DNA from: Daphnia pulex
Lineage: Eukaryota > Arthropoda > Branchiopoda > Diplostraca > Daphniidae
Direction: 5' to 3'
Length of the DNA stretch: 64,000 bases
Assembly: GCF_021134715.1 (NCBI RefSeq)
Contig: NC_060018.1
Coordinates: 10,495,501-10,559,500, forward strand
The notes beneath the pieces are model-generated. The model did not search any database, had not been told where the DNA came from, and worked only from the letters and a program-made list of their open reading frames with translations. A program made the translations under genes and the position numbers. Below, one piece after another: positions 5,285 through 43,116 of the stretch (within the stretch, counting starts at the first letter, position 1; the number at the start of each line of letters is the position of its first letter).

Positions 5285-5410
5285 TTACTTCACAGGTATT
5301 ACTGTTGGTTCCTTAGCCATGACCAGTTGCGCCATCTCATATGATGGATTACTGTTACAAATGCGACAACTGTGTACCAATTAAATAATAACAGTTCAGG
5401 ATATACTGTT
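5285..5410 (+). pseudogene. Giant-virus fibre gene, 5' fragment left of the MULE
   Basis: This short segment is homologous, with the same order of motifs, to the middle of the other fibre gene at about 40,250-40,390 (minus strand). Both encode an ISYDG motif, then ATTVYQLNNNS and the start of the YadA-type head repeats. It stops exactly at the MULE target duplication and continues at 9767 on the other side of the transposon. The reading frame has at least one shift between the ISYDG and ATTVYQ blocks. It is the leftmost viral sequence I can recognise. Confidence 0.75.
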
Positions 5411-5540
5411 GGCATGGAGACTCTGGCTACCTTTTCCACTGGCTACCGATGGGGGCGACACCTGCTACCCCTACAGTGGCTACCTATATAAAGTGACACC
5501 AGCTACCCACAGATGGCGGCACTGGCCACCCACGGGTAGC
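5411..5540 (+). repeat. MULE left terminal inverted repeat
   Basis: Matches the reverse complement of 9644-9766 with scattered mismatches. The left copy has an extra short duplication of a CTGGCTACC unit near its outer end. Several CTGGCTACC/GCTACCC sub-repeats occur within it, typical of transposase-binding subterminal repeats. Confidence 0.88.
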
Positions 5541-6419
5541 GGACACTGGCTACCCTGTTTGATTTGTTTGAAATTATAAAATAATAAACTGGAAAGTGTT
5601 GTGAGGAGATATGATAAAAAATTACAGTAGAAAAGAATACAACATTTGATCTAAAACGGAAAACTGTGTCCAGCTATACATTGTATGATTCTTCTTCGTG
5701 GTAATGGTAATTTTTTCATTGAATAGTGAAATGAATATAAAGGGATACGAAGCATGAACAAGCAGCACAGAAGCAATACATCTATTTAGCCTAATGAAAA
5801 TCCGAAAGAAATCACACCACAGCTTCGTTATTGGCTGATCAATGCTGGCTGATAAGAAACGCAAATTTGTTTGAGTCATTTACATAACAGCCATGGCGAC
5901 AGATTATTTATTGGCCTCAACGGTCCCGGAAAAATAATTTTGTTAGGAAAATAAGTTTGTATGATATTCAGGAATGACGAGCGAAGTTGAAAGTGTACCA
6001 ATGAACCATATGATGTGACTAGGAAGATATTTGTTGAATTTCGGTTCATGTCATCGAGGGCTCTTGTTAAGTTAAAATTATATCAGCCAAACACTTGTTG
6101 TATACAAGTAAAAAAGGACTTAGGAATAAACTAGAAAACTTTCTAACTTAAAAACTTCATAGAATTGTTGGGTTGTGGTGGCCTTGCAAAAAGGCAGAAA
6201 ACTAGGCTCTTCAACGCCGAGAATCACCCTCAGAATTCCCAGAAGGATTGTATAAAGGGGTTGCGCACCGTTCCGGCGAGTTCAAAACAGAGCTGTTACG
6301 GCGGCAGCTGATCACCGCCGGTAAGATCACACGAAGGTTCTGTATTGGCTCTCAGAAACTGGTGGCTCTCAGAAACTGGCAACAGGCACGGAACTGTCTG
6401 AAACGGATATATAAGCAGA

Positions 6420-8910
6420 ATGGATGAATCGAAAGTCAGTTCAGTGTCTTTTCCAGTCTTACCCAAGCATCTTCTACCATCACTGCTGCCAAAGAGAAGA
6501 ACGACGATGAATGCAGAGCAGTTTGAGGAGGACGATCATCCCCAGGTTGAAAAGGTTAAAGCGTGGATTCATCTATCACTTCCAGAAGGCGACATATTGA
6601 TTTTCGTTAAAAAATTTAATGAATTTAAATTTGAACTAACTTGATAATCAATAAAATGATTTTGCAAAGGTTGTCCGACGAAGTCTTCATCTGCATTAAC
6701 CAGAAGAGGACGAAAGGGAACTGCAATGCTCGAATCCGCAAGGATACAGAGGCCGGCGAGTTCCGAAAAGACGGCCATCACGCCCATAACCATCCTCCTG
6801 AGCTGGATCAACAGCGAAATGTAGCTTTTGTCAACGCTTGCGCTGTCGAGGCCTGTATTTCAAGTGATCCTCCTCGTGAAATATTTGACCGTATTCGACG
6901 AGGGTATCCAGGCCTCCTTTTAACCTACAAAGACGCAATGCAACGACGAATCCAGCGTGCTAAGCGCAGCATGCAGCCTCGTATCCCCAAGACCATCGAC
7001 GAAGCCTATGAACTACTGATGCAGCATCCTGAATACACGTAAGATGACCGTACACTAATGAACTTAGCAACATTGCTGATTTAATTTTACTTTGTTACCA
7101 TTTTCCTTTTCTATTTTCATAACAGTGATGCCTTTGAAGGGGGTGAATTCTTCAAAGGGCGCGTGCAATCCAGTGACGGAGGAGAGGGCTTTGTGTTCAT
7201 ATCTCCAAAGCTTTTGCCAGAAATGTCGAATACGACAGAGCTCCAAGCTGACGGCACATTTGACAGTCTACCCTCCCTCTTTAAGCAGCTGTTCACTCTA
7301 CATATTAGCCGCTTTGGTCAGGTAAAAATGAGAAAAGATCGGCATTAAACAAGTTATTATTTTACTCAAAATATAATGTACCTAGGTGTATCCATTTGCG
7401 TTCGTGTTAATGACAAAAAAGACCCGAGAGCTATACGACACTGTCCTTGAGAAGATCTTGTCCGTCTACGATGAGCTTTACCCGGACGTGTACCTCATCG
7501 TAGAGAGGCTGATTTCAGATTTCGATAGGGCTATTCAAGATTCGTGCAAGCAGGCATTTATGGGATGTGAGTGTGTCGGCTGCTGGTTCCACTATGGACA
7601 GGTAACAAATCATTGACATCATACATCATTTGATTTAAATAATTAAAATTATTTCATTAACAAACCAATTTTTCATAGGCGATATGGAGAAAGGTACAAA
7701 AGTATGGACTGCAGTGCTCCTACCGTACTCGGAAACAGGTGCGGCAGATCATCAAAGAGCTCATCGCGTTAGCTCTCCTTCCTGCGGATGACATTTTACG
7801 AGGATTTCAGGTGAATCGAATTCTTCAATTTGTCAAACAGTTGCAAAAATTTAATAACCTGATTTGTGTTTGGTTCTGCAGAACATCAAAACCCACTATC
7901 GAAGGTCACTCTTGCAAGAATCAGGCGAGATCCAAGCTGCCATCAAACGACTGATGGACTATGTCTACAATTTCTGGATTGACGATGTTACACCAGAAGC
8001 ATTCAGCGTGTTCGGTCTTCTAAACCGAACCAACAATCTCGTTGAGGCGTGGTATCGTTGGTTCAACAAACGTTGCAGAGGAATTCACCTAAACTTTTGG
8101 GATTTCACCTGTAAGTTAAATTGTTTATTAGAATAATTCTAAAAATAATGGACTATTTTTTTTTATGTTTATACCTTTAAACAGACGCCTAAAAGTGTCG
8201 GAAAATTCAAAGATGCGCGATTACCTTGCTGAAGCAATCCTTGGGGATGATCATCGAAGAAGAAAGACACCATATCAGCGACAAAGGGAACGCAACATTT
8301 CCAACAACGAGAGGATGTACAGGGAGGGGCAAAAATCAATGGACGATGTGCGCAAGTTCCTAGAGACGGCAAGAATGTTTATGGAGCCTGATGTAAGTCC
8401 TATAATTTAATTAAGTGCGATTGTATATTAATATTTTATACACTTACAGCTCTCTGCTCCTGTTGAAAACGAGCAGGATGACGTCCAGCCCGAAGGAGAT
8501 CAACTCGATATTGGTCCAGCCCAGAATGAGGTACCACGATGACGTCAACGCTTTTTAGCTGGCACGCCTCAGCTTTTTGAGCCTGCTGATGAGCCTGTCG
8601 ATCCTGAAGTTCCGCGCCCAGCTGTTCGTGGTCGTCAACGTGGACGCCAAATCGTCGAGCCACGTCCAGCTGCCAATGATGTAAGGAAACGAGCTTTCGC
8701 TTTGCCTGCTCTTGCCGAAGAGCCCGTTGAGGTCGATGCTGTTGCTGCCGAACCGTTGCCTATTGAACCTGCCGGCCGTACACAGCGGATTCGTCGCCGA
8801 CCTCGAAGCCTGGAAGAAAATGGTGATTTTGTGTTCCCCTCTGCTCGCCGAGGAAGACTGAATGCTGCTCCTGTTCGTGGCCGTGGCCGTGGTCGTGGCA
8901 ATGGACGTTA
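6420..8910 (+). CDS. MULE transposase, FLYWCH + MULE DDE domain, multi-exon
   Basis: Likely exons: 6420-6640, 6641-7038, 7126-7321, 7386-7601, 7679-7810, 7882-8110, 8185-8392 and 8450-8910, most joined by clear GT-AG introns. The N-terminal part carries a FLYWCH-like zinc-binding module (spaced Cys, then GHHAHNHPPE). The core shows the MULE catalytic acidic residues: Asp in LQADGTFDSLP, Asp in ISDFDRAIQDS followed by a C..H pair (GCWFHYG), and Glu in NNLVEAWYRW. The C-terminus is Arg/Gly rich (GRGRGRGNGR). It would cut and paste DNA in the nucleus. Lesions: a frame change near 6640 inside the FLYWCH module and an in-frame TGA near 8540 (CGA to TGA likely), so the copy is probably inactive but not old. 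Confidence 0.85.
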
Positions 8911-9643
8911 AGATCTTCAATTCAGCCCAATTTCCATTGAACATATGTATGATCTAGACTATAAATAAAATTCATTTTCCTGCTCCAGTCGTCTATTCTT
9001 CAGTCACAATTCTCTATTCAAATATAATAATGAATGAAAATCATGTGAATAAGCAAAATTAGTTCATCTTACCACCGACCTCACACATTTGCTACATCAT
9101 TACTAAAGAATTCAATTGAATAAAGCACCTACAGCCTTATGTCTGCTTCTTCCATTGACCATCACAAGGTTGTTGTCGTATGTTGTGGACTTGTGGTGTA
9201 TCATTTGAAAAATAACTGTAACGAGAGCTTAAGGATCTTCAGATGAAAACACTAATTCTTGAAAGATTATGATGGAAGTTGCTATCCGATACATGACTGG
9301 CTTTTTTATGATGCAGCCCAGGAGAAACATTTTGTTAAGAGTAAAGCATGAAATTAGGATTGAGAAAATGTTGAAATAAAAGAATGAATTTTGTTTGAGA
9401 ACATATTTAAAAGTTACAATTCTTCTGAGCTACAGCTTATTGTGAGTTGTTCCATCTTCAAAGGATTTCCATATAATTTGGCCGGGTACAATATAATTCA
9501 GCTCTTGAAAAGCTCTTTTCTTCGTCAAATCAGTAAAAGCATTCTGTTGAGAGACGAAATTAGTGAATTTTAATGGGCTATCATGTTAACAAGGTTTTTG
9601 TGTATGCTGTGTGCCGTCAGCCCGTCAGTCCGTCACATTCCGA
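8911..9643. other. MULE 3' non-coding region
   Basis: AT-rich DNA between the transposase stop codon and the right inverted repeat, with an AATAAA polyadenylation-like signal near 8963. No other gene is supported. Confidence 0.6.
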
Positions 9644-9766
9644 AATGGGTAGCTAAGCAACGGGTAGCAAGTGTCGCCATCTGTGGGTAGCTGGTGTCAC
9701 TTTATATAGGTAGCCACTGTCGGGGTAGCAAGTGTCGCCCCCATCGGTAGCCAGTGTCCGATTCCC
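9644..9766 (-). repeat. MULE right terminal inverted repeat
   Basis: Inverted counterpart of 5411-5540. The outermost 21 bases of the two ends align without gaps apart from a few mismatches, which fixes the element ends next to the ATACTGTT duplication. Confidence 0.88.
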
Positions 9767-11282
9767 ATACTGTTGCAGTAGGAAACCAGGCAGGTGCAGT
9801 AAATCAAGCCCAGAACGCAATTCCGATAGGAAACAATGCAGGATTGGTACAACAAGGACAAAATGCGATTGCCATTGGAAACTTTGCAGGATTACAGTAT
9901 CAAATCTCTAATTCTATTATTCTGAATGCATCTGGATTATCAGTAAATGCTGCATCGCAAGGCTTTTATGTGGCACCGATTGCATCGTATAGTTTGTCTA
10001 GTTCTTCTTTATTTTCTTTATTAGCATATGGCACAGATAATCAAGTAATACAGACAGGACTTACGTATAGCTCTCCAAGTAGCATAATAAGTAATTCAAT
10101 AAGTGATTTAATATTACAATCAACACCATATAATTCATGGATTATATTATTTCCTGCATATAATTTTGGTAATGCATATCCTTGTACAGCATATGGATCA
10201 AGTTCAATGTCTATTACATGGACATTAGCAAATACTGGTGAAATAGATTTTTTAAATAATTATGGAATGACAGGAATTAATGCAGGAAGTCCTAGTCTTA
10301 CAGCTGGATTTAATTTTTATAATCGTTCAGGAACTTCTAGTTCGACTCTTCTTGCTTCTATAAAATCAACTGATATATTATCACTTAGTACTGCGACTGA
10401 TTTTGTCATAGGAGCAAATGCATTTGATTCAACAAATGGTTGGAATACAATTAGTCTTAATAATAATAATGGTAAACATCCAACTTCTATTCCTGGAAGC
10501 TCTACTGTATCTATTGGTTATAATCTTGATGGAGGAGGGATTATAAATTTTATGAATAATACAGGTAATGATGGATTTAGTTTTTATAATCGTGTTGCAA
10601 CAACAACATCAAGTCGTCTTTTAACAATTAATAGTGGTGGAATAACACTTCCTGCAGCCAAAGGAATCACATTAGTTTCTACTTCTACTAATTCTTGGTT
10701 TAATTTTATTGGAAGTACTAGTTCATATAGTCTTCAACAAGGAGGTGGATATCTTTATGAATTAGCATATTTAAATAGTACAGGAACTTTTACTGTAACA
10801 AGTGATAAAAATTCAAAGAAAAATATTGAACCAATAGAACCTATTCTTGTTAACTATTTACAACTTAAACCTTCATATTTTCATTATAATTTGCAAGAAG
10901 ATGAAACAACTGATAAAAGTATTGGTTTGATAGCACAAGATGTAGCAGAATTATTTAATAATAAAAATATTATAAATAAAAATGAATTGGAATATATAGT
11001 TTAAACTATGGTAATTTTACAGTGTTGACAATAAAAGCGGTTCAAGAACAGCACACAATTGTTGTCACACAGCAAACAGAAATTAACAATTTGATAATAC
11101 AACTTGTTATGAAAGTGACCCAAATTGATACACATACTACTAAAATTGATTCACTTGAAACACAAATCGCGTTAAAATCAACTCAAATTGATTCATTAGA
11201 ATTACAGTTGTCCCAAGTTCTTCAACGTCTAGCTGCTGCAGGGATTGCAGAATGCTTTTTAGCACTTTTTATAACGAAGTAA
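9767..11282 (+). pseudogene. Giant-virus fibre protein: YadA-like head repeats and S74 chaperone
   Basis: The segment right of the MULE encodes three head-type repeats (AVGNQAG, PIGNNAG, AIGNFAG), a central Ser/Asn/Gly-rich beta-type region, and a C-terminal Peptidase_S74 intramolecular chaperone: SDKNSKKNIEPI followed by LKPSYFHY and IGLIAQDVAELF. S74 domains trimerise and self-cleave from phage and giant-virus fibres, so a trimeric virion-surface fibre is the likely role. A one-base frameshift near 11,000 separates this from the final coiled-coil (11022-11282), which has repeated TQIDSLE-type heptads. Upstream coding sequence is cut off by the MULE and resumes at 5285-5410. Paralogues lie at 32275-38962 and 39220-41630. 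Confidence 0.85.
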
Positions 11283-11501: not shown

Positions 11502-12026
11502 TTAAGTGCAAATAGATACCTGGCTTTCCTTGCGAGCCTCCGAAGTACCATTGCCTATCAAACCAATAGGAGTATAGAGTTCCATGATACGACTGCAAAT
11601 TTGTTCACGTCGTGGAAAGGGAGTAGTTTGATCATAATACAGATAAATGCTTTGAATACTGTATGTATTCGATGCAACTTCAATTCCTGTTGAATAACGA
11701 ACCGAAGCCATGGGAGTATTTGTCCAGATTGCACCTGACTGTGTTCGCAAGTACGCCACCAATTCATTATAATGATCAATAATTTGCGGTGTATTTGGTA
11801 CCTCTGCTTCTACTATCATGGCGTGAACATGACGCATCCATCGTGCAGCCACTTCATTGCTTTTGAGTACATCGCATACATGTGGGTTTTCTTTTTTTTC
11901 GGTTTAACAGTTTTTTTTAGCTTTCTTTCCTTTAGTGGCGTTAGGTTTTTCATTAACTTTAACTTCATTAACTAAGTCATTAACTACTTCGTTGTTTGGT
12001 ACTTCGGTGGATCCCGATACAATGAC
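11502..12026 (-). pseudogene. Unrecognised viral protein, C-terminal part (split by Harbinger)
   Basis: On the minus strand a 116-codon open frame (11502-11852) encodes a soluble protein with motifs such as ARWMRHVHAMIVEAE and TQSGAIWTNT. Upstream, to the Harbinger target site at 12027, the same strand encodes a Val/Asn-rich then Lys-rich linker containing long A runs, with a frameshift around 11885-11905. The N-terminal part lies beyond the transposon at 16133-16366. I do not recognise the family. Its place between fibre and ligase genes, and its lack of introns, mark it as viral. Confidence 0.6.
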
Positions 12027-12029
12027 CTG
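12027..12029 (+). repeat. Harbinger target-site duplication CTG, left copy
   Basis: CTG is repeated at 16130-16132. Removing the element and one copy restores continuity of the minus-strand viral gene. Three-base duplications fit PIF/Harbinger, although TWA is the commoner target. Confidence 0.75.
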
Positions 12030-12245
12030 GGGTCGAATTCTGAACATGAAACTTGACTTGAAAATTGACTTAAGTCGGCTTTTTTAACTTGACTTTAGAG
12101 ATTTTCTGACTTGAATCTCCAAGTGTGATTCCGAACAAAATTTTTTAAGTCAAGTAAGCGACTTGAACTTAAAAATGTCAAAGTCGAGTGTGAAACTTAA
12201 TCTCAAGCCAAGGTACGTCGGGACGTATCTTGGCTTGGATTTTCT
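12030..12245. repeat. Harbinger left end: TIR plus subterminal ACTTGACTT repeats
   Basis: The 16-bp TIR is followed by at least six ACTTGACTT/AAGTCAAGT-type units in both orientations. The mirrored set is at 15930-16129. Such units usually bind the element's Myb-like protein. Confidence 0.8.
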
Positions 12246-12359
12246 GACTTAAGAGCGGTAAAAAGAGGTGAATTCTATTAAATGATATGGCAACGTCCGC
12301 TGTCAAAATTGCCATTTTTGATGTCTGCTGCTAGTTGTCTCTAGCTTTCTACTGCGAAA

Positions 12360-13817
12360 ATGGACATTGAGAACAATTTTATTGGTGATTTTTTAAACGA
12401 TTTAGCCTATATTACGGACAATGAAAGTAGCTCAGAGTCAAGTAATGAAGAAGAAGACGAAGCATACGCAAAACAAGTGAGAACATATCGTAGGAGCAAG
12501 TTAATCCCGTTTTACAACACTCGCAAGGACATCTTCACCTACTTTGAGGAAGAAAAGTTGATCAAGACTTTCAGATTTGACCGGGCATCAATTGAAATTA
12601 TTCTAAGTATTACATAATTTGTGTATGCTTAATTATCTTTGTGGTTTTTTAATGATTCATCATGCATCTCTCCCAATAGGCTTAATTGTTCACCTCTTGC
12701 CCAAGCGAAAGACCAAAGCTAAGCGGAACCTGGAGCCAATTGACATGCTATTAGTAACACTGCAATTCTATGCCACAGGCACCTTTCAAAGTGTGGTTGG
12801 CAATGTGTTACGCTACAGCCAATCATCAGTTTGTCGCTCAATATCCATTATTTCATTGGCACTGGCTATGATATCAAAAAAAAAGATAGCATTTCCAGCT
12901 GACCTTCTTACGGTACGTTATTGTTGTTTATGACATAATTGAAGGCTTATGTTTACTAATTGATTTTTTTATTTTGACAGTTGAAAAGAGATTTTTATGA
13001 GATCGCTCGGATGGCTGGTGTTGTTTGCTGTATAGACGGCACGCACATAAGGATTGTGAGGCCCCAAAATCACGAGAAAGCTTATGTCAACCGCAAGAAC
13101 TATCATTCTCTGAATGTTCAGGTAAATTTGTGGCCTTAATTTAGATTCTTATATGTTGTTTTGACTATTCTTCATCTCATATTCAGGCTATTTGTGATGC
13201 CAATCATCGTTTTCTCAGTGTTTGTGCAACAAAACCAGGGTCTTGCCATGATTCCACAATATTTAAACCAATTTGGAGAGCCTTTTCTGTTGGGAGACAG
13301 TGGATATTCCAACACCACCTTCCTGCTTACTCCTTATTCCAATCCTATTCAGCCATATGAGGTATAACTCAATAATAATTTGATTTTCATCCTTTCCCAA
13401 TAAATTAATGTCTAATTTTAACAGGTTCGATTCAATCGCTCTCACAAGTCAACTAGATGCACAATCGAGAGGGCATTTGGAGTGCTAAAAAAGCGCTTTA
13501 ATTTGCTGCACGGCGAGATTAGAATGAGCCCCACAAAGGCATCTTGGTATGTGCTCATCTTAAGTCACATTTTTCAGTCATATTTATTATACACATTTAT
13601 TTAATCATCTTAATATCATTGCAGGATTACGGTTGCTTGTTGTGTCTTACACAACATAGCGATTGACCGGAAAATGCCTCTTGATGATCCAGAGTTGGAT
13701 GAAATAGATGACGAAGTCGCTCACTGCCATCCTGCCCAGTCTGTTTCTGATGTTTGAGCTCGTCAGTTGGGCAGTGCTAAAAGACAAAGAATTGCTCAAA
13801 ATTTATTCAACTATTGA
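12360..13817 (+). CDS. HARBI1-like DDE nuclease of the Harbinger element
   Basis: Exons at about 12360-12606, 12680-12912, 12981-13121, 13187-13363, 13425-13549 and 13622-13817, with GT-AG introns. The N-terminus is acidic (EDEAYAKQ). A helical region ([13 protein letters not shown]) precedes the DDE_Tnp_4 nuclease: first Asp in [10 protein letters not shown], second in LLGDSGY, and catalytic Glu in [14 protein letters not shown]. The C-terminus ends [19 protein letters not shown]. It would cleave the TIRs together with its Myb-like partner. Lesions: a frame change or small deletion between DSTIFK and the GDSGY block (near 13270) and a TGA at about 13755, so this copy is probably dead. Confidence 0.85.
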
Positions 13818-14440
13818 TTTTTGTTTTGTTTTGTTGATCTTGCCAATACAAAATCAACTTGATAAGATACATGGTCGCAGGATCAACATGAAGCTGTTGC
13901 CCAATTGGGACCCGTTTATTTAAATGAACATACAGGGTGTTTATCAAAGTCGACTGAGAGTCATAGGTGTGTAGGGCTCCACCGAATTCAATCCATTTTC
14001 GCTGAAGGCCTCAATTAAATACCACACATCGATAAGGTGCACTGAAGAGATAATAACAACCAAGTGAATTCAACTAGAAAATATTTTAGGAATAAATGAA
14101 TGTGTTACAATAAGTTCTTCGCTGAATGAAACGGAATTTGACAGCCGTTCGATAAGAAGCTAGACGAATGACGTTGAAATTCTGTCCAATTTGCCCGACT
14201 CATTTTGTTCCATACTGATCCTATATATTCAATTATATTCACGTACAACGATCGATTTTCAAACACCCGAGAGGTAGTAGAGTAAATTATCTTGGTATTC
14301 ACATCCTGTTAAAATCAGAACTGCTGTAGTGCTACCGCTAAGCCGATTTGATCGACTTCGTGAGACAACAACAACAAGCACGTACCTAGCATTAATTGTA
14401 TTTGCACACAAACCGAGAACAAAATAGACAATCATGAGGT
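13818..14440. other. Harbinger central non-coding region
   Basis: Spacer between the convergent 3' ends of the nuclease and Myb-like genes. Short open frames only; no feature is supported. Confidence 0.6.
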
Positions 14441-15880
14441 TCAAATGTTTTCGTAAGGATCAAAGATAATGTCTTGTAAGTCTTTTGGGATTTCGGCAGC
14501 AGTCATTGGATTGTTTAACTTGTTACGCACCTCCATGGCAGAAGAGAGTAGTCGCAAGCGTGTCTCCATCATGCGGGCGTGGCCAGCCGTCTCACTTGTA
14601 GTACAAAGCTTGAATTGCGTAGTTTTCTTGGTCTCCCTGAGGGTTTTGGAATTGCGCTTGGAACTGTTATTTAAAATAGAATGAAGGGACGATTCAGCTG
14701 CAGGGGTCGTTCGGCCACCGGAATAAACAGCCATGGCACTTGATGGACGCTTTTGCGTATTCTTTGGGGCCCGTAAAGTCAAAGAGTCTTCTGGCGTAGA
14801 GTTGGAAAGAGCGTTGTCAAAAGATAGACGAAGTTCTCCTCTTTCATCATCAGCAGATAATCCTGTCCCATCTCCATCGTTACTCTGCTCACCCAAAAAC
14901 TGGCTAAAAACGAATCAATGGATGTAAAAATTGTGTTGAGAAATCGTTGCTGAATAAATAATTTATACCTGTTATCCTCCGACGACTCATCAGTCCTTTG
15001 AAAAAGGTCAGTATTGTGACTTTCATTTGGCTCCCTGCCCAAGAAGTGCTGAATCAAATCCCTTTCTTGCCCGGTGAGCAATTCATTAACTGCTTCGGTG
15101 TCAATCGCGCCCTGTTATGCAATAAATTATTAAAATAGTCAATATTTATCACACTTGATTTAGGAATTGAGTCAGAGATACATACCTCTATGGTTGATGT
15201 GACACAAGGATTGTCAATGTCCAAGTATTCATCCCAATACTTTTGGTACAAAGGATTCAATGGGCCAGTTGATGGGCCACCACCTGTTGATATGGAAATG
15301 GAACATGGCTATAAAATAGCTATTATAATTAGAGTGTTGAGTGAAATGGAGAGGCTACCTGTCTCGCTCAATCCAGCTTTATGATTGCGAATGATCTGAC
15401 GGGCTTTTTGCTCAAAATTGCCAAACTTCTTCTTCACAGCATCAGGAAGTTTTGGTGGACAATCGGGATGTTCCAACACAATGCACTCTGTAATAATCAC
15501 CCAAGCTTGCTTGCGAGTTTCCTTTGTCACAAGAGCACTGAAAGATCCAGCAATGGAATCCTATAATAAATAACTCTGTTTAGTTTGAATTGATGCAGTC
15601 AAATAAACTAGATTTTTACCTTGTTAATGATGGCATGAGAGAGCAACGATTCAGTTTCACCATCAGTCCACGTCTCTCGTTTCTTCTTGCCGACCGATGC
15701 TGAAGCAAGACGACTAACTGTATTTCTTGCATTTTTAGATTGAATCGAAACAGAGTTATTTACTGTTTTAGTAGCCATTTCTTTTAATTGAGATGAACAC
15801 AAGTCCACACCGGTGGGAAAAGTCAAAAAATTGTCAAACAAGGCTGTGTTTTTTCGTCTGCTATGATACCTATCTGCCAT
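14441..15880 (-). CDS. Myb/SANT-like DNA-binding protein of the Harbinger element
   Basis: Five minus-strand exons (about 15880-15620, 15560-15360, 15290-15187, 15112-14970, 14905-14441) with plausible splice sites. The first two encode a Myb/SANT-like trihelix: RETWTDGETESLLSHA, then KFGNFEQKARQIIRNHKAG. The rest is polar with a C-terminal helical segment (TRLRLLSSAMEVRNKL). In Harbinger elements this protein binds the subterminal repeats and brings the nuclease to the nucleus. No internal stop was seen in the exons checked, so it is better preserved than the nuclease. Confidence 0.8.
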
Positions 15881-16129
15881 GAAAGGACTATTTCTATTGG
15901 TTCATTAAACTCCTCCCCCTTCTTTTGCCAAGTCGAGTACTTCTTCTGCCAAGTCGAGTTTTAATTTTTAACTTGGCTAAGTCAGCATCGCTTTTGGTTT
16001 CAGAATTCTACTTAGACTTACAATTTCAAGTTTGAATTTCAAGTTGAATACTTGACTTAGCCAAGTCAAGTTTGATCGGTTAAGTCAAGTTTTTTTTCAA
16101 AGTCAAGTGAGAAGTTCAGAATTCGACCC

Positions 16130-16132
16130 CTG
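16130..16132 (+). repeat. Harbinger target-site duplication CTG, right copy
   Basis: Matches 12027-12029. The viral minus-strand gene resumes directly to its right. Confidence 0.75.
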
Positions 16133-16366
16133 TTCCAATGGAGCATGTAATGATTCTGCCCACAAAATTGGTGTATCATAAGTTTTAGAAGGACGCGGTC
16201 CTTTTACTTCTAAGACACGACCATCCTTCATGATTACAGCAGTATACCGTTCACTGTTTACAATTACACGAAGCATAGACTTTGGTTCAATGGTATCCGT
16301 TGCAATCGCGGCAAGTGGAGTAATTACCATATCATCATCCATGTAATTTGGGTCAATTGCAGCCAT
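16133..16366 (-). pseudogene. Unrecognised viral protein, N-terminal part (split by Harbinger)
   Basis: The minus-strand frame begins MAAIDPNYMDDDMVITPLAA and runs for about 78 codons to the Harbinger target site, including RYTAVIMKDGRVLEVKG and RPSKTYDTPILWAESL. It continues at 12026 on the other side of the transposon. An AAGAATAGTA motif lies about 80 bases upstream (16445-16454, minus strand). No family is recognised; the RPSK-Y-T-W motif might allow a profile search to place it. Confidence 0.6.
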
Positions 16367-17676: not shown

Positions 17677-17712
17677 AAGGTTATATAATGTACTATACAA
17701 TGTTATAGTTTA

Positions 17713-17714
17713 TA
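17713..17714 (+). repeat. TA target duplication, left of pogo-like element
   Basis: TA at 17713-17714 and 22129-22130 bracket the element, as expected for the pogo/Tc1/mariner superfamily. Confidence 0.7.
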
Positions 17715-30040: not shown

Positions 30041-30310
30041 AGTTTGTTGAAGTTAGAGAATTAACAAAGTGCTGATAGTGTTTAAACTTGTATGAAGTAT
30101 TCGAGGAGATACAAAAACACGTCCATTGTAAATCAGAACTGTCAAGTCAGAGTTAAGGTGTTACTAAACAGCAACCGAAGAAGACTATAGATAGGTAGCC
30201 TCACCTTCACAATCAGCGCCATTTGGTGGCTGTTACAATACAACATATATGATTACAGATTACACTTATAGGGTTCATCATTAAGAAGATATGTACATTC
30301 AATATCTGGA
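30041..30310. other. Non-coding insert-like segment within viral low-complexity gene
   Basis: About 200 bases with higher GC than the flanks and stops in every frame. ACATAT(AT)G occurs at both sides (about 30,014 and 30,243), so a short insertion with target duplication is possible, but no inverted ends are clear. Confidence 0.3.
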
Positions 30311-30316
30311 TTGAAT

Positions 30317-32027: not shown

Positions 32028-32290
32028 TTATGGTTTGTTTGCAGATTTTCTAGTAGATGATCTCGATCTACTAGGAGATTTTCTACCAGGTGATCTACCA
32101 CGTCTAGTGGCAGAACGATTCGGTGATCTTCTATCAGGCGATCTTCTACCAGGTGATCTTCTACTAGATCTCATAGGAGATCTCATACCACGTCTAGTGT
32201 CAGACCGATTAGGCGATCTTCTACCTCGTCTAGTGGCAGAATGATTGGGTGAGCTTGCTCTATTGGGAGATTTTCTATGAGGTGATATTA
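32028..32290 (-). pseudogene. Arg/Ser-rich repeat protein fragment, viral
   Basis: The minus strand encodes about 85 residues of SP(G/N)R(R/K)SP and SATRRGR repeats ending STRKSANKP. No start codon exists: it emerges from the 3' end of the fibre gene at 32275-32290 in another frame. It resembles the SR-rich tails of giant-virus DNA-binding proteins. The + strand of the same repeats is also open (leucine/aspartate-rich) but is probably only the shadow. Confidence 0.5.
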
Positions 32291-35200
32291 CCCCTTACGT
32301 AACGGTACATAACTATTGTATTTGACCGTTGTAAATATCCAATTGATGTAATAAGAGAACCAGCACGAATAAAAGCAATATGACCTTTATTGTCTGTTAC
32401 ATTGGAAGGTCGTGTCAAATTAACCATACCATAGGTTGGTCCATTATCAACAGGTCCATCTGAAATACTGAGGGTTGGCTGAGTTACATATGTTATTGCT
32501 ACTGTAGGATTGGTGATTTGTACTAATGCACCTCGATTTGATATTCCAATTCCTATATTATTACTTGTATTAATATAAATTCCACTATTACCTGCACCCG
32601 TCTGTAAGATTAAATTTCCAGACAATGTATTGATCACTGTATCTCCTGCCGCAGCAAAATTTGAATATGCCCCTGCACTTGATGCAATAGGAATTTGTAA
32701 TGCAGTAGGATAGGTAGAATTACCCATAATGATCTGCGGATTGGTTGCACCATAAATATATAGTTTCTGTGAAGAACTTGATGTCCCAACTACTCAGACT
32801 ACATTCCCTGCAACAATCGCATTTCCACTCGTATACCCCGATGGCAATCGAGTGACAGACTCAATCACAACTTCACTAGAAGTACATGATCCAATATACT
32901 GTCTATTTGCTGACATAGCACAAAATGTCCATGGATTACTTGGAATGGTAGCAGAGGACCATGTTGTACCATACGTAGTAGAATAATAAATCAATTTAGT
33001 ACCTACAGTGTTAATTGTTGCAACTTGATACTATCCTGAAGCAGAAAAACATACACAATTCCAATTTGGCGATGAAATACTGTTTGATGTTGCCCATGAT
33101 ACACCATAATTACTTGAATAATAAATAACACCACCCCATGAGACAGCTGTTTGATATTGTCCAGAGGCAGAACAACATACACTTTCAAATGTAATACCTG
33201 ATAAACCACTTACTTGAGTCCACGTTTGGCCATAATCTGTTGATATATATAAAAATTTTGTTCCTGTTTTTTGTTACAGGTGCATAAAACATGGTTGCTG
33301 TCTGATACTGTTTAGAAGCAGAACAACATACAGATGTATAGTATCCAGAGACTGAATTAGATTGTGTCCATGTTACACCATAATTTGTAGAATACCAAAT
33401 GTAACTTGTAGTTCCACCTACATTTGCTTGTGTAGCAGTCTTATATTGTCCAGATGCAGATACACATGATCCATACCATCTAACTGTTGGTGAAGTAACT
33501 CGTGTTCATGATAGACCATAGGTAGAAGATATATATATATTACTTTCTGCATTAAGTACACCTATTATCTGATATTGCCCTGATGCTGACATGGCTCCAC
33601 CAATATAGTTTAATAGACCATTTGGTATTACTGGTGTCCAGCTTACACCATAATTGTTTGATACAATGACAGCAGTGGCATAATGCGTTACTAATTGATA
33701 CTGGCCATTAGCAGACATAGCAAATCCTTGACAATTAAGTCTTGTAGTATATGATACCCAGTTCTGTCCAAATGTTCCATAATCCAATGCAGGTGTTGCA
33801 GTAATCTGTGTTGAGTTATCCATAAACTGATGTACAGCACTACGAATTCTTCCTGCTACATCAAGTTGATATTGTGGCACAGATAATCCAGTTCCACCTG
33901 TTGCGGCAGTTGTCCCAAAAATAGTCTGAAAAAAAGTATTTGTTCTCGTTGGTCCCTGTCCAACACCAACAAATCCAGCAGAATATGTTAATGGATTACC
34001 AACTATTCCTGTAGAACCCGTTACATTCCATGTAATAGCACCAATAGAACCAGTAGTACCAGTAGAACCAGTAGAACCAGCAGAACCAGTGGGACTAGTG
34101 GGACCAGTAGAACCAGTGGAACGTCCCACTTGTAGAACGACAACAGCAATACGTGAATATGTTGTTTGTATGGTTACCGCATTATTATCATAATAATATA
34201 CCGCCATGGTTGCACCAGGAATCATCGTAACAACAAAAGAATTAGTAATAATATTGCTCATGGTCAACACCGATGCTGTTCCACCGAGTTGGAAAAAAGT
34301 AGATCCATTTCCTGTAGTATTCAGTTGTAATGTATATTCCACTAACACAGGTAGTGTCATATTAGTTTTATTCGTAAATAAACCTGATCCATTCGGTGCA
34401 CCCAGAATAGAAGTGTTGAGTGACTGAGATGTATCTGAGGTGTTCCATAGTACACTCGCACTCGTTGGTGCAGGAATGGCTTGAACACTTCCTAGTGTAA
34501 ACGATGACATGGTTGAACCTGACTAGTTAACCCTGGTCCTGTTACTCCAGTAGGACCTTGTGTACCAGCATTAATAAGTGATAATGTAATTGTAGATTCC
34601 TTTTTTATTGTTACTGCAGTACCAGCATTTTCTATATAATACAGTGCAATTGTTCCATTGGGAGAAACCAATACTGTACACGAATTGGATATAAAATTAC
34701 TGTCATTACATGTACCACCAAATAACGTGGTTGTTCCACTTAATCCAATTGCAGAGAAACCACCACCTGTTGTATTCAAACTCAATGAATATTTAATAAG
34801 TAAAAGGTGAGATACATTAGATATATTGGTAAAAAGGCCAGATGCATAGGTAAATGGAATGGTACCTTGTGACTGTAATGTTATTAATGTAGGAAAAGCA
34901 ACAGCTACAAAAATGCCCGATGAGAAGACTCCTCTTTGTGTTCCTGTTGCAGCATACGCTGCTTGTATGGCTTGTCCCTGTGGTCTAGCTGGACCTGTTA
35001 CACCTGGTGAACCAGCACTGAGTAGTGTGCATATAATACGTGAACTAGAAATCATTGTAGTTACTACTGCATTATCTTGATAGTATATGCCAAAATATAC
35101 ATTAGGAGCCAAAAGAATAGTACAACTATTTGAGAAACCATTTGTATCATTGAAGGTTCTACCAAAATTGTTTGTGGAACCGTTGATGCCAATGGCAGAA

Positions 35201-35752
35201 TAGCAACCAGATGTGTTTCATAAGTTTAATGTATATTCGATATTAAGAGAAAGAGTTATTGTTGTTGTATTTGTAAATGTTCCTGCAGGATTTGCTTCAT
35301 AATTATATATAACTCCTGTTGTTCCGATTGATTGTGTAAGATCTTGAGTAGACCATGCAATCAGAGTATTTAATTGTCCTTTAATTGGAATACTTTGTGC
35401 TCCACCAGCAGTGTATGAGAATTGTCCAACTTGACCAGATGAACCAGCTGCACCTGTTGCACCTGTTGTACCACCACATATTGTGGAACCTGTAACAGAT
35501 ACAAGACTTGATACAGACAATAGGGAAGCATACATGGTTACTGTGGATAAGGTGGATCCAGTGAGGGTAGAGAATGTAGTGAGAGATAGACCAGGAACAT
35601 TGGTGGTACTTGCATTTAATGTTGAAACCGTGAGTGTTGAAGCAAGTGTCATACTATTTCCTGAAAAAGTAGATGCAGTAATTGTAGAGGCTGTTAATGA
35701 ACTTCCAATCAGTGTGGAGAATGAGGTAAGTGATAGACCAGGAACATTATTA
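32275..35752 (-). pseudogene. Giant-virus fibre/collagen-like protein, C-terminal part
   Basis: Continuation (left of the 35753-38015 transposon) of the gene starting at 38962. In coding order there are a Ser/Thr stalk (STLTVSTLNAS repeats), three jelly-roll-like (C1q/TNF-type) modules with YTLQLNTTG or YSLSLNTTGG strands, collagen-like GSTGPTSPTGSAGSTG stretches, then repeated Asp-box-like units (STTYGTTW, SNNYGVSW, each with a SASGQYQ strand) and a final GDTVINTLSGNLILQTGAGN beta region. At least four frameshifts and several stops (e.g. near 32,795, 33,020, 33,505) break it. Likely a virion-surface fibre. The end at 32275 leads into Arg/Ser-rich sequence. Confidence 0.8.
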
Positions 35753-36789
35753 AAACAGCGAACTGGGACACGGCCCGCGAAAACGCAAATTGGGACACAA
35801 TTCGACGATTTTTTCTTTAAGTAAAATACAAAAAAATGTGAGGTTTATTGCAAAATCTAATTTATTTAATTTAAAATATAGGGGGGGGGATACGCAATTA
35901 GGCAAAAGGACGTAATATACTATTTAGAATTATTCGAGATATAATTAATTGAATTTTAAGAATTTGGCTTACGGCCAAGAAATTTGGGCTCTGTGTTGGC
36001 TGTTAGCAAACAACATTGCGGCATAAGGAATATCTAGACTATAAGTGGATTAATCCTTTAAATAATTATACCAAAAAGGTAGAGGGTGAAAAGTTCTACA
36101 ATAGTATATAAGGTTTTGTCAATATTTTGAATATTTATCGAAATATTTCATTACCAGGAAATGGAAGAAAAATGCGAATTTGGGACAGCAGACGCGAATT
36201 GGGACAACAAATTTTGAAAAAAAAAATTATTTCGTTATTTTGCAATGGTTGTACATCAATCGACGCAGAATTTCAAGGCAAATCGATTGATATACAGGAT
36301 TTATAGGTTTTATTGCGTAATTTTAGCATTATTAGCCAAAAACTATTTCAGTGACGTTGGATTGAGTCTGGCCAGATCCAAGAAAATTGTCACTTCCATC
36401 TGTTTTTTTTTAATTTGTTCTTAAAATGAACGATTGAAAGCGAATAGGGTTTCAGATATTTTCGCGAAAATTTTAGAATTTTATGTCAACATTTGAATTA
36501 GATCATGGCTCTTCTTTCTCATGGTGCCATACCTTATGTCCCAAACTGTAGCCCCAAATAATTTTATTAAAAATTATTGAAGTCTTAACGTTTTTCGTTA
36601 ATCCTGTTCATCTTGATAAAATATTTATAGTGCACTTTAAATAATGTAAATAAAACGAAAAACAGTTAATATTTTCGATAAAATAGTAGCAGTTTTGTTG
36701 CCATAAGGTGCTATGATGCTAATTGGGACAGCCGAATGGGAAGCTGTGCCTATTGTCTTATCGCAGACTTCTTCAAAGTCAATAAAGTA

Positions 36790-36863
36790 TCAGTGGCACC
36801 TTGGTTAAATGCTAAATTTGCATTTGTTTCATCTTATGGTGAGGTGTTCGAGCCCCAAATCCA
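36790..36863 (+). repeat. tRNA-like segment 1 in the TIR element
   Basis: Contains an A-box-like TGGCACCTTGGTTAAATGC and a B-box-like GTGTTCGAGCCCC, spaced about 40 bases apart as in tRNA genes. Acceptor stem pairing is not evident; it is likely tRNA-derived or a decayed pol III promoter. Confidence 0.5.
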
Positions 36864-37009
36864 ATAAAAAAAAGAATTAATTCTTCCATCGAATTTACGT
36901 GTATCTATAAAATTTTTGATTAAAATCCAACGACAAATAAATTTTTCTAACAAATAAAATGGATTATCGTATCAAAGTTTCACTTGTAATCATTTGAAAA
37001 ATCTAAAAC

Positions 37010-37090
37010 GCTCCTCAGGTTTGAACCTTTGCCATGTGAATCTGAAATCTACGACCTTATCAACTAGACCACCAATAGCTGTCGTTCAAG
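37010..37090 (-). repeat. tRNA-like segment 2 in the TIR element
   Basis: On the minus strand, TGGTCTAGTTGATAAGG (A box) is followed by AGGTTCAAACCTG (B box). The spacing and the T-arm-like palindrome fit a tRNA pseudogene or SINE head. Confidence 0.55.
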
Positions 37091-37239
37091 AACATATTGG
37101 GATAGCTATACGAATACCTGTTCCAACGGACCCGATTTAAATTTTATTTTCATTTGATTGCACGATTTCATCCCAATTGAACGCAAATATCAGAGTTTTA
37201 GAACTGTTGCCAAAATCGATTATAGATATCTGGTTGATT

Positions 37240-37318
37240 ATGGGTATCGAACCCCGAACTCATGTGAATCTAATTCGACGGCCGTGATGTTACCACCACG
37301 CCATGACAACTTAACGAA
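37240..37318 (-). repeat. tRNA-like segment 3 in the TIR element
   Basis: On the minus strand, TGGCGTGGTGGTAACA (A box) is followed by GGGGTTCGATACCCA (B box, T-arm). It has the best tRNA resemblance of the three. Confidence 0.55.
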
Positions 37319-38015
37319 AATGTAATTACCACTCTGTATGTTGATGCTACTTAAGTCTGCTGTCCCAGTTCGCATCATCGGCTTACATGGGAAACACAAA
37401 ACATTAATTAGATGAATAAAATCAGCGCTATGTTAGCAAAATACAGCTTAGTACATACAGAACACTATCCTGAATCCGCATACATAAATTTTTCTTATAA
37501 AACTATAGCTTTATTTTATTTTTAATAACACAAGTTTTCGGCTAGTTTGGGACATTCACAACACGGACGTCCAACTTTCAAATTGAATTTCTCGAGAAAT
37601 AAACAATAGAATTTCGCCTAGTTTATTATTTTGTAAATCTTAGGTTATTCCTTTCAAGTTAAGCTAATGAGTTAATAAGATATTCAAAATAACTTTTTTT
37701 TGTTGATGAATAGTTTTGATCCACTGTCGAAAAGTTCAGCAGACGGAAAAAGCTTTTTGACAGCTCAATGTTTTGATTTTTTAAATGAAAATATCTCAAT
37801 ATTTTTCTATTGCACCATACTTGGTGTCTTAAGCGATTCGATTCAGAAAAAAAATTCTGCGTCGAATGAAATAATTAGTTTTTAAAAATAAGTCTGTCCC
37901 AATTAGCATTTTTTGTCCCATGATTACATTTTTTCCCCATAATTCGCATTTCGTCGATACACGCAAATGCCATAAGAAAGTCTATTAGGAAAAACGCTGT
38001 TCCAGTTCGCTGTTT

Positions 38016-38962
38016 TACCCTAATAGAACTTGCATTCAATGTTGAGACAGTAAGTGTTGAGTTAACAATGACATCATTGCTATTCAGACTGGATACAGCA
38101 ATTGTTGATGCAGTTAATGAACTTCCAGTAAGTGTAGAGAATGAAGTAAGAGATAGACCAGGAACATTGATTGTGGATGCATTTAATGTTGAGACAGTAA
38201 TGGTTGAGTTAATGACAAGATTGTTGGCCTGTATTGTCGATCGGAGTGAGGAATAATAGATGAGTTGTGCTGTCAAAGTGGATACATTAGATACATTTGT
38301 TGTTATTGTGGATGTAACAAGTGTTGAAGCCAATTTAGAATTGGTTGCTGTTACATTACTAGCAGTAACATTCGTTGTGGTGACATTCGTTGTACCAATG
38401 GTTGATCCATGAAGTGAAGAGAAATTGATAAATTGTGCATTCAAGGTGGATACATTGGACACATTGGTTGTTATTGTGGATGTAACAAGTGTTGAAGCCA
38501 ATATAGAATCGGTTGCAGTTACATTCGTTGCATTAACATTGGTTGTACCAATGGTCGATCCTTGAAGTGAAGAAAAGGTAACAAACTGTGCAATCAAGGT
38601 GGATACATTAGATACATTTGTAGCTAACGTGGATGTAGTTAGCGTAGATGTGGATAATGAAGTAAGTGATACAATAGAGTTTGCTGTAAAAGGACCATTG
38701 AAGGTGTTAGAATAAACAACTTCTTTATTGACCGTATCGTACATCATAAGATTGGTGGCGGTGACATTTCGAACAGGAGCAATGTATAATGCATTTGTTG
38801 AAACACCCGATAAAGCCGTACCAGATGCAGGACGATACTGGATGCGGGCTGTGACACTGCTCCTGCCAAATATCCGATGGCAATTGATGTGGATCCTTGC
38901 AGTGTTGACCCTGCGCCAGTTCCGAAAGAAACGGCATTTATACCTCCATAGGGATACGACAT
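38016..38962 (-). pseudogene. Giant-virus fibre protein, N-terminal part
   Basis: ATG 38962 starts MSYPYGGINAVSFGTGAGST, then a YadA-like head repeat (SIAIGYLAGA). After a one-base shift near 38,830 a long threonine/serine stalk follows: NVSNVSTL(I/N/T)AQ, TTNVTATN and STLVTSTIT repeats, about 100 bases per unit at the DNA level. The gene is cut by the transposon at 38015 and continues at 35752; the frames on the two sides differ by one base. The stalk repeats resemble trimeric adhesin stalks. Confidence 0.8.
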
Positions 38963-38971
38963 GTTATCTAA

Positions 38972-38992
38972 AGGCTTTTTAGAAAAAAGCCT
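38972..38992. terminator. Hairpin AGGCTTTTT/AAAAAAGCCT
   Basis: A stem of nine to ten pairs with a tiny loop, 10 bases before the fibre ATG at 38962 and downstream of the fibre gene ending at 39220. It most likely terminates that upstream gene. Confidence 0.55.
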
Positions 38993-39219
38993 ACCAAAAA
39001 ATACAGGTTGTTTATAGGAAAATAGTACAATATGTAGTATTTTCGTATTATAATGGGACCGAAACCAATTATAATAGGAAATGTAGTAGGAACTGTATTA
39101 GAAAAAATAGAATAGATACCTAGAGAAAAGACATGGATAAGAACATATATGCATTTTTAAAAAATAGATAAATAATATACTAAAATTAATGAATTACTAT
39201 GTAGAGATAACATATATCA
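38993..39219. other. Viral intergenic spacer
   Basis: AT-rich gap between two minus-strand fibre genes. No gene is seen; an AATAGTAC motif is present near 39,025. Confidence 0.5.
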
Positions 39220-41630
39220 TTATATAGCATATATTGAAAATGTCATATTTACAAAATTTCCAGTATTATTACTAGTTCGTTGATAATAATTAAATATTAA
39301 AGGTGATGTTCCAGTAAATCCTAATGCTATACCTCCCATAGATGCTACAGTACCTGTTTCAGTTGTTATTGCAGTACCGTATGAACTATAAAATGTAATA
39401 CTTGAAGTAACAGGAACAAGTAGTGCCATTCCACCATAATATCCACTTGAAATATTTCCAGTATCAATGGATGCAAATACAAATAAATAAACAGAGGCAG
39501 TTCCATTTGACCATATCGTATTTGTAAATGCGGGAGTAGGATTGCTAGGACCACCATCAAGCAACACTTTTATAGGGGTTTGTACAATATTTGATTTAAA
39601 TCCAGATGTTGCAATTGTACCATTCACATGTAGTGCAGAAGTAGGATTCGTTGTCCCAATTCCTACAAGACCATTTGCTGCAATACGCATACGTTCAACT
39701 GCAGGGTTTCCTACAGTACCTGTAATTCCATCTATGGTTCCAAATGAAATTACTCCACTACGAAGTTCAACTGGATAATCACTACGTGTATTTACATCAA
39801 GAATACGTATAAATCCTCCTAAATTTTGATAAGAATCTCTTGTTATAAAATAATCATCTAGTCTAGCAACAATATATGTACTTCCATCTGCTCGTGGAGT
39901 AGCCCATGATGATCTAATTGTAGTATTTGGTGAAAATAAATGTAATAGTGCACCAGGATTCGTTGTTCCAATTCCTACGTTTCCATTAGATACCATTGAA
40001 ATTGCTCCATTACTATGTGTAAATTGATTATCTAGTCCATAACCCATAACAGATAAATAAAGTGAGGTAGATGCAGTATATCAGGCAATTAGTGCCAAAT
40101 AAAAGACCTGTGCAACAGAATTCAACCCTTGACTTAATGGGCCCAAACCAGATGCATTCAGAATAATCGAGTTTGCAGTTTGATTCTGGTACCCAGCATA
40201 GTTTCCAATCGCAATAGTATTCTGGGCTTGATTTTGATAACCAGATTGATTTCCTATCGCCACACTGTAACCATTACTATTATTATTTAGTTGATACACA
40301 GTTGTTGCATTTGAAACAGTACTATAAGAACCATCATACGAGATGTCACATCATACAAGTGGTGTGGTACCAACAGAGACACCTACAAATGTTACACCAT
40401 AATAAGTTGAATAGTATACATTATTACCTGTGGTTGCATTTGTAATAATTACCATATATTGTCCTGTAGTACTTATAGCAGACCCTGTAATTACACCAGG
40501 GATGGTTCCTGACGCAACCGATGAACCTGATGAAACATTTGTTATTGGTGATATGACATTATATAAGGAAGTGTTTGTTCGTCCTGTAAACATTGGTACA
40601 AATTCACCATATTCAAATGCTCCAACATTCATTGGCCATAGAGTTTGTCCAATCACTCTAAAATAGGTATATGCTGTTTTGGTAGTTAGAAAGGTACCAG
40701 TGGTTATAGGTTGGGATATACCTGCAATTACAGTTTGTACTCCATTATAATTTACATAGGTAATATTTGTCTGTGTTTGAGAAGCATTGGTAAATGGAAT
40801 TATACCAGAAAATGCACCCGTTGTTATATTATATCCAAAATTAGATGCCCAGCAATCAGACCCTGAATAATTGATAATTGCATTAAAAAGCATATAGGGT
40901 GCACTTAATGTGCCTGAATACGATGAACTTGCACTTACCGTCCATGCAATACCTCCTTGATTCCATGAGGTTGATGCTAACCCAGTTTGTTGTGGGGTTA
41001 CACTAAATGATGGAACCAATTGGGTAAGTGTGGTAGAATTGAAGTTATTTTCATAAATGACTTGCATTTGGTATGGTGTTAGTGCAGAGTTATAGATACG
41101 AAGATTATCGACATATCCTGCATATTGGTTATACAATCCAGCTACACATCCTACAATTAATGAGGTAGCTCCAACTGCAGTAGTTTGTGTACATGGTATG
41201 CCTGTATAACTTATTGAGTTTTGAAGTATTCCATTTACGTATAAATAAGCCATCCCATTTGCAATGACTCCTGCAATATGTGTCCATGTATTCATTACTA
41301 TAGGAATACTTGTTATAATCGTTTTTTGAGTGAATACACTTCCTACTGTTGAAAAACCTTAAATCCAACTAATCCCGCAGGTGAAATATAGAAATCTAAT
41401 AATGTAGCTCCTCCTTCTCCAGCTCCTAATTGAATTGGTGCCGCTGTATTTGGGGATGGAAGTGCAGTAGGATAAATCCATGCTGAAATGGAAAATGCAT
41501 TTGGCATCGCAGCAAAAAAGAAGGCAATGTATATGATACAAATGTATTTGATTCATTTGTTCCAGCAATACCAGTAATAACTAATGAATTTGATCCAACT
41601 TTTCCTGAACCATTTGTTCCTTGTTTGATT
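39220..41630 (-). pseudogene. Giant-virus fibre protein: LamG + head repeats + GIGTTNP units
   Basis: In coding order there is an LamG/concanavalin-like module (SNSLVITGIAGTNESNTF to WTHIAGVIANGMAYLYVNGI and YVDNLRIYNSALTPYQMQ), a linker, two YadA-like head repeats (AIGNQSGYQNQAQNTIAIGN), then VGIGTTNPGALLH and VGIGTTNPTSALHV units as in phage tail fibres, and a C-terminal beta domain ending MTFSIYAI. Breaks: a frameshift near 41,350, and TGA codons near 40,349 and 40,079. The LamG N-terminus runs into the capsid gene on the opposite strand at about 41,610-41,635, so its 5' end is lost. The head region is the closest paralogue of 5285-5410/9767. Confidence 0.82.
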
Positions 41631-42822
41631 CCTCGCAGAGGTGATTTACTTGGCAGAGTCTATCTTGATATTACACTCCCTCTCATCAAGAATACATCGG
41701 GAAATGTATTGTCCCACACAAATACGATTGGACATGCATTGATTGAAGAGATTTCCTTAGAAATTGGTGAGCAAGAGATCGATAAACAGACAGGAGAATG
41801 GATGGAAATTTGGACACAGATTTCTACACCTACTTCGCAACGGGATGCACTCAATCAGCTTATTGGTCGTCAAAAACAGTATGAAACGCCAAATATTATT
41901 CCAGATGCAACAGGTGGACTACAGCTTCTCATTCCATTACAATTCTTCTTCTGTAATAATCCTGGACTATACTTACCATTGATTGCTCTGCAGTATACAC
42001 CCATTCGTATTAATATTACATTGAGACCATTACAACAGCTTTTCTGGGTTCCGCCACCAGCAGGTGATCAGAGTCAATGGAATCCATTATGTAATACACA
42101 AGCAAGTTGTACAACACCCATTATGAATATGATGTTATGGGGAGATTATGTCTACTTTGATGTGGATGTCTACGTTTGTTTATGAGTACAACACATGAAT
42201 ATGTGATTGAACAAGTGCAATATACACCACCCTATTCGATTACTGCAAATCAAACAACGGCAACAATGTCTGTGGAATTCAATCACCCTGTAAAGGAATT
42301 CTTATTTGTGATACAACGAGATGCGATGACAAATCGCAATGAATGGTTTAATTATAGTAGTCTGGTAACTGGTGAATCTGCGATTCAGGCCTTCTGGTAC
42401 AACTACTATTGGTTCTACAACGTCAATACGTCCGGACTTACTTGCCTCGGCTGTTTTTCAATTGGATGGGTATGATCGATTTACATCACGAAATGCTACA
42501 TTTTTCCGTGTACATGATGGTCATACAGCTGTTGTAAGCTGTATGACCATCATACTACGACTCCGGTTGATGCATACATTTATAACTATTCCTTTGCATT
42601 ACGTCCAGAGGACATTCAACCGACGGGGTCAATGAATGCAAGTCGAATCGAAAGTATGACATGGCAGATTCAGATGAACACGGCGCTAACACATCCATTA
42701 CCTGCATCTGGAAGTCAGACGGCTTATCCTGCACGAGGCAATTGTCACATTGTAATATACGGGCACAATTACAATATATTTCGAGTGATTAATGGTTTCG
42801 GTAGATTATTGTTTACCATTTA
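41625..42822 (+). pseudogene. NCLDV major capsid protein (double jelly-roll), broken
   Basis: Begins inside the first jelly-roll at IPRRGDLLGRVYLDITLPL; also seen are EISLEIGEQEIDKQ, YVYFDVD, THEYVIEQVQ, VEFNHPVKEFLFVIQRD, TFFRV, ALRPEDIQPTGSMNASRIES and a C-terminal NYNIFRVINGFG, all standard for NCLDV capsid proteins. The first part of the N-terminal strand region is missing, replaced by antisense LamG-fibre sequence. Frameshifts lie near 42,165-42,180, 42,380 and 42,530 (at a 17-bp inverted repeat). The protein forms the trimeric capsomers. The MCP is the strongest single marker that this block derives from a giant virus. Confidence 0.9.
42514..42553. repeat. Perfect 17-bp inverted repeat inside the capsid gene
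   Basis: ATGATGGTCATACAGCT (42514-42530), a six-base loop GTTGTA, then its exact inverse (42537-42553). It coincides with a frame change in the capsid gene. Confidence 0.85.
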
Positions 42823-42864
42823 ATTTTGGTTTTTTCATAGACTTTTTCTTACAACATCTAAGTA

Positions 42865-43116
42865 ATGGCATCAGATCCATCTGTACTTCCTAAAGTGATA
42901 GAACCAATTCCAAGTGCAACTATTATGCCTACTCCAGGTTTGCCTCTTGCACCAAGTGCTCCAAGTGTACCGACTGCACCGCTTATACCTTCAACAAATG
43001 AACCTAAAAAACCAAATGTATCTACTCCTGTTGTTGGACCAGAAAAACCTGGTATAGCTACAGCAACTCCACCAACAGAAACTCCAAAAAAAGAGAAGGT
43101 ATTAGTAAAATCATAA
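42865..43116 (+). CDS. Proline-rich small viral protein (83 aa)
   Basis: Intact frame starting MASDPSVLPKVIEPIPSATI; Pro/Thr/Ala-rich without folded-domain motifs, and Lys-rich at the end. It lies 42 bases after the capsid gene on the same strand. Function unknown. Last recognisably viral gene on the right. Confidence 0.5.
   Translation: MASDPSVLPKVIEPIPSATIMPTPGLPLAPSAPSVPTAPLIPSTNEPKKPNVSTPVVGPEKPGIATATPPTETPKKEKVLVKS

Follow-up and report, generated by a model that had tools for sequence, protein, structure and literature searches.

The window, by which we mean the whole 64,000-nucleotide stretch of Daphnia DNA analysed here (C2:10495501-10559500, inside the chromosome-scale contig C2), contains at about 5290-43116 a giant-virus (Nucleocytoviricota) fragment. 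Judged from the sequence, it is very probably endogenous and decaying, with about 22 kb of viral DNA joined into a germ-line chromosome. The initial annotation had proposed giant-virus DNA in an arthropod chromosome, and this is borne out by capsid and ligase homology, by host transposons within viral genes, by a duplicated right junction and by shared lesions. The Nucleocytoviricota origin is indicated by the NCLDV-type major capsid protein (PF16903 at 1.2e-33, PF04451 at 2.4e-18); like a giant endogenous viral element, the block has several viral genes lying between host DNA on either side, with transposons inside, duplication and decay.

On the left, the final host kinase stretch stops at about 4450, and fibre-gene DNA is discernible from 5333, with the reading frame alone taking it back to about 5290. 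On the right, the virus-side open reading frames stop at 43116 and genome-repetitive DNA begins at 43348. The edges at about 5290 and 43116 agree well with the span of 5285..43116 first assigned to the block, and the flanks, then described as animal-type, hold tyrosine-kinase exons on the left and genome-repeat DNA on the right, with several viral genes between them. The window has no N bases (0). The description of a densely packed block of about 38 kb needs correction: the viral part is decayed, and of the whole about 15.5 kb belongs to five transposable elements, leaving about 22.3 kb viral. The features, with strand in brackets and profile E values, are as follows.

2664..4450 (+), left host flank, tyrosine-kinase exons; PF07714 3.1e-8 at 4166-4450 and, just below the cut-off, 8.8e-5 at 2664-2990
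5290..11282 (+), S74 fibre gene, interrupted by a MULE, 5' end cut off at the left junction; S74 6.6e-9
5412..9766 (+), MULE transposon within the fibre gene; 95-nt inverted arms (95%), PF10551 2.5e-6, genome copies up to 94%
12024..16135 (.), terminal-inverted-repeat element; inverted repeats (18/20 terminal bases), 4-bp duplication, genome copies
16529..17709 (-), ATP-dependent DNA ligase, broken, two frames; PF01068 2.9e-12, OB domain PF14743 5.6e-12
17711..22160 (+), pogo-like transposon; DDE_1 2.6e-13 at 18906-19502, both ends adjacent to each other at other genome sites
22187..23338 (-), Fringe-like (GT31) plus GT2 glycosyltransferase; PF02434 1.8e-6, PF00535 5.5e-11
23472..23861 (-), dual-specificity phosphatase; PF00782 (DSPc) 1e-17
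25887..26423 (-), MORN-repeat protein; PF02493 3.5e-8
26395..26679 (-), XRN exonuclease N-terminal fragment; PF03159 1.5e-10, profile positions 1-102 of 241
28259..28879 (-), possible PI-PLC; weak, Pfam 0.098 (below cut-off), PDB 0.0037
28897..29268 (-), Erv1/Alr sulfhydryl oxidase; PF04777 (Evr1_Alr) 4.9e-12
30045..30342 (.), short repeat; copies up to 98% on other contigs
31520..31993 (+), Cu/Zn superoxide dismutase (SOD), open frame; PF00080 (Sod_Cu) 3.5e-30
32275..41358 (-), fibre-like genes, LamG domain at 40351-41358, element inside at 35751-38028; PF13385 (Laminin_G_3) 5.5e-14, internal repeats
32749..49234 (+), duplicated segment; second copy at C2:9129470-9148179, on the same contig 1.4 Mb away
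35751..38028 (.), 2.3-kb transposable element, present in both duplicate copies; many genome copies, inverted ends 17/20
41487..42823 (+), NCLDV major capsid protein, broken, several frames; PF16903 (Capsid_N) and PF04451 (Capsid_NCLDV) in different frames
42862..43116 (+), final virus-side ORF, open in both copies
43348..49234 (.), right host flank, repeat-rich, copia gag piece; genome repeats from 43348, PF14223 1.7e-6 at 45651-45884

Twenty block proteins were scanned against Pfam at an E threshold of 0.1 plus the curated cut-offs. Six of the 20 have no Pfam family at 0.1, one of them (14444-14914) sitting in a transposable element, and two have solely sub-cut-off matches (the PI-PLC and a DUF). 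The capsid, ligase, Erv1, SOD, MORN, XRN, phosphatase, GT31-GT2 and S74 assignments of the initial annotation all have Pfam matches, and the profile check that it proposed for capsid, ligase and Erv1 came out positive at the values given above; its PI-PLC matches just weakly. Within the fibre-like region, no Pfam family is found for the stretches 33509-34522, 37878-38963 and 39223-40080. The small ORF adjoining the capsid gene (42862-43116) is proline-rich, has 84 codons and stays open in both copies despite the broken capsid. Across the genome searched (133.19 Mb, 13 contigs), the capsid profiles match at two loci only, the block and its duplicate. The A32 and D5 profiles have no match anywhere in the genome, in searches whose controls responded in 2 and 3 of 14 genomes respectively; nor has VLTF3, where the search responded in no control and the negative is therefore weak. 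The lack of A32, D5 and VLTF3 is what one would expect had no more than a small fragment been taken up. A second Peptidase_S74 domain lies at C10:6193268-6193432, presumably in the host MYRF gene.

In the fibre gene at the left edge, the MULE has a 9-bp target-site duplication (5403-5411/9767-9775), and the gene pieces flanking it match adjacent parts of the other fibre gene. The element at 12024..16135 has no Pfam match and, as a guess from its layout, may be Harbinger-like, while the short repeat at 30045..30342 is probably a MITE. This short repeat, the pogo-like transposon and the 35751-38028 element were delimited by where their genome copies start and stop, and none of the three shows a convincing target-site duplication.

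The duplicated 16.5-kb segment takes in the right half of the block together with the right virus/host junction. In a gapped alignment, the two copies are 97-98% identical over most of the segment and 94% in the outer 3 kb. Divergence between the copies is similar in the viral, transposon and flank parts, with K2P distances of 0.010 to 0.020 for viral pieces (n=5), 0.025 for the shared transposon, 0.020 and 0.033 for the main flank pieces and 0.033 to 0.075 for three small repeated flank pieces. Copy 2 carries a private 2.2-kb insertion with frames resembling mariner-type transposase, the family being judged by eye. The capsid is broken in both copies, with one common break and one private break each; since one break is common, decay began before the duplication, and the viral insertion is older than the duplication. 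Taking mutation rates of 1.0e-9 to 3.8e-9 per site per generation from PMC11550904, a divergence of 2% places the duplication roughly 2.6 to 10 million generations ago. In the right flank, 47566-49234 carries short coding units that repeat and have a motif in common; the duplicate has more copies of these units.

Decay was also counted as changes at columns invariant among the other reference sequences. The window ligase, whose OB domain lies in a different frame from the ligase domain, has 4/112 such changes, as has its 99% relative P0001 (4/112), while the relative P0002 has 0/150 and 30 references have 0 to 5; another relative, P0003, has 23/122, mostly in its tail. For SOD, the counts are 5/63 in the window, 4/63 in P0241, 1/63 in P0242 and 0 to 5 in 31 references, and for the capsid piece they are 10/81 in the window, 10/79 in P0121 and 0 to 7 in nine references. 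Single references show similar counts for ligase and SOD, so that the missense signal is modest in these two genes and the argument for decay rests on the broken frames of ligase and capsid. The SOD frame is still open, which we count against the reading of a decayed fossil. On its reading frames, we nevertheless take the block to be a dead fossil, with capsid and ligase frame-broken and the open SOD changed at residues that are invariant in relatives.

Relatives of the viral genes, among them intact ones (ligase up to 88%), are present in public assemblies. The ligase search returned 5847 proteins, and among the best 120 are P0001 (99%, 13 members), P0002 (88%) and P0003 (83%), with the rest at 75% to 55%. 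P0001 has the same broken tail as the window ligase, and the OB domain of P0002 is intact. Longest contigs reach 474 kb for P0017 (65%) and 570 kb for P0060 (57%), the largest among the ligase matches listed. The capsid-piece search, which reached proteins up to about 406 residues, returned 129; among the best 120, P0121 (99%, 19 members) has the same broken tail as the window piece and is followed by a 74% match that covers 79% of the query and then by lower ones, short overlaps reaching 77%. The SOD search returned 1788 proteins, the best 120 of which begin at 96% and 85% and continue at 74% and lower. The largest contigs among the listed SOD and capsid relatives are 227 and 76 kb. As to whether the block occurs beyond this genome, the broken pieces of ligase (P0001) and capsid (P0121) recur in other public assemblies; these two may come from Daphnia sequencing data, and hence are not surely from independent individuals. 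The 96% SOD relative, P0241 (8 members), has an open frame and 4 of the window SOD's 5 changes at invariant columns, and by this resemblance it probably represents the insertion as carried by another lineage of Daphnia. P0003, with its foreign-looking tail, was considered as a product of this genome and rejected, as its match to the window locus, at 84%, is confined to residues 2-285; it may perhaps represent a second broken insertion in another host.

Shared longest-contig sizes also bear on gene linkage. Seven sizes are common to the listed ligase and SOD matches (five of them >5 kb), whereas jittered sets (n=5000) average 0.16 and never exceed 3, which suggests indirectly that ligase and SOD are neighbours in relatives, as in the window. 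Among the matches listed, ligase and capsid share 0 sizes, and SOD and capsid share 1 (695). In the ligase tree, the window ligase groups with P0001, P0003 and P0002 with support 0.999. In the SOD tree, the window SOD is 0.04-0.45 from its six nearest relatives and at least 2.3 from four host SODs, which are set off from the rest by no single edge.

Named relatives are more distant. For a structure model of the capsid relative P0127 (mean pLDDT 73.8), the best matches are Terrestrivirus (25% identity) and Medusavirus (28%), and the highest identity is 31% among the best 50 of 112 matches at E <= 0.001, some of which are unnamed; the named viruses listed are at most 31% identical and spread across several groups. 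The block has no polymerase, and these matches do not establish the Imitervirales-like lineage suggested by the initial annotation. When P0127 is compared by sequence with solved structures, a set with few giant viruses, the first matches are PBCV-1 MCPv1 (1.4e-57) and the PBCV-1 capsid (1.4e-42). In IMG/VR, neither two capsid pieces nor an alignment of 20 relatives recovered any relative, and tblastn of P0127 in the phage collection likewise recovered none. IMG/VR ligases (80 of 90 loci kept) were considered as donors and set aside, because the stretches around them are without any of 19 other window proteins and because one edge with support 0.985 splits the 10 IMG/VR ligases in the tree from the other 61. 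Judged from these comparisons, the virus is without a close named relative in the collections searched, and the block suggests that a giant virus of fresh water, as yet undescribed, once entered the germ line of an animal. As a doubtful further possibility, the donor may come from a clade of freshwater giant viruses with large genomes, not described so far, that infects Daphnia or close crustaceans, with fragments fixed in more than one Daphnia lineage.

The position of the block in a scaffold proves nothing by itself, since the same assembly contains, at C1:1140001-1210000, a region of about 70 kb packed with T4-like phage genes, including those for clamp loader, DNA polymerase, ligase and fibres. 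This stretch, found via the P0003 search and N-free in its examined part, is probably contaminant DNA joined into the scaffold, and possibly a real insertion. The argument for integration of the viral block hence rests on transposons within viral genes, the duplicated junction and broken genes. That free-virus DNA from the sample was likewise joined into the chromosome scaffold, for which the T4-like stretch is a precedent, is very improbable: host transposons sit within the viral genes, the right junction is present at two separately assembled and diverged places, the viral genes are broken and the window is without N.

Two other readings accept the integration. At least one gene, for example the open SOD, might be retained for host use in a domesticated viral island, as would fit a complete open frame whose histidines follow the metal-site pattern, with ligand positions that we in part assume, and the likewise open frame of P0241. 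However, SOD in the window and in P0241 is changed at 5 and 4 of 63 invariant columns, against 0 to 5 in 31 references, and the neighbouring genes are broken; we hold domestication to be very improbable. An integrated block encoding a jelly-roll type capsid could also be a Polinton/Maverick or virophage-type element, but its capsid matches NCLDV profiles, the listed ligase, SOD and capsid relatives lie on contigs of up to 570, 227 and 76 kb, and an integrase is absent among the block proteins scanned, which together make such an origin exceedingly improbable.

If the block is the endogenous giant-virus fragment that we favour, about 22 kb of viral DNA would have been joined into a germ-line chromosome, probably in the course of an abortive infection or of uptake and through non-homologous end joining, where we infer both the mechanism and the germ-line route. 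Host DNA transposons would then have jumped into viral genes while the frames broke, and the 16.5-kb segment with the right half and right junction would have been copied 1.4 Mb away. The block would now be without evident function.

Giant-virus insertions that span several genes are known from algae and protists but have seldom been reported in animals. The decayed insertion is of a known kind, and what is unusual is its host, an arthropod. The host is a model crustacean, existing Daphnia panels allow the insertion to be genotyped, and the relatives that it has today in public assemblies could lead to an unknown virus of Daphnia or its food. A literature search that covered few subscription papers and no preprints found the block unreported apart from a 2017 capsid record. 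This record, by Gallot-Lavallee and Blanc (PMC5294986), lists D. pulex capsid gene copies, with no clade given in its table, and probably concerns the same locus or its duplicate. There it is described as a lone core gene among animal genes; here it belongs to a viral block of many genes that contains transposons and is partly duplicated, which is what is new, and the reported lone capsid gene becomes a datable multi-gene fossil. The Daphnia iridovirus of white fat cell disease is, from the accessible part of PMC5873915, also a large DNA virus of Daphnia, but an iridovirus. The giant endogenous viral elements of Euglena gracilis, in the passages available from PMC12455990, are likewise eroded, transposon-invaded and duplicated, whereas in comparison with such protist and algal elements the Daphnia block lies in an arthropod, has about 22 kb of viral DNA and occurs in a genome where the A32 and D5 profiles were not found.
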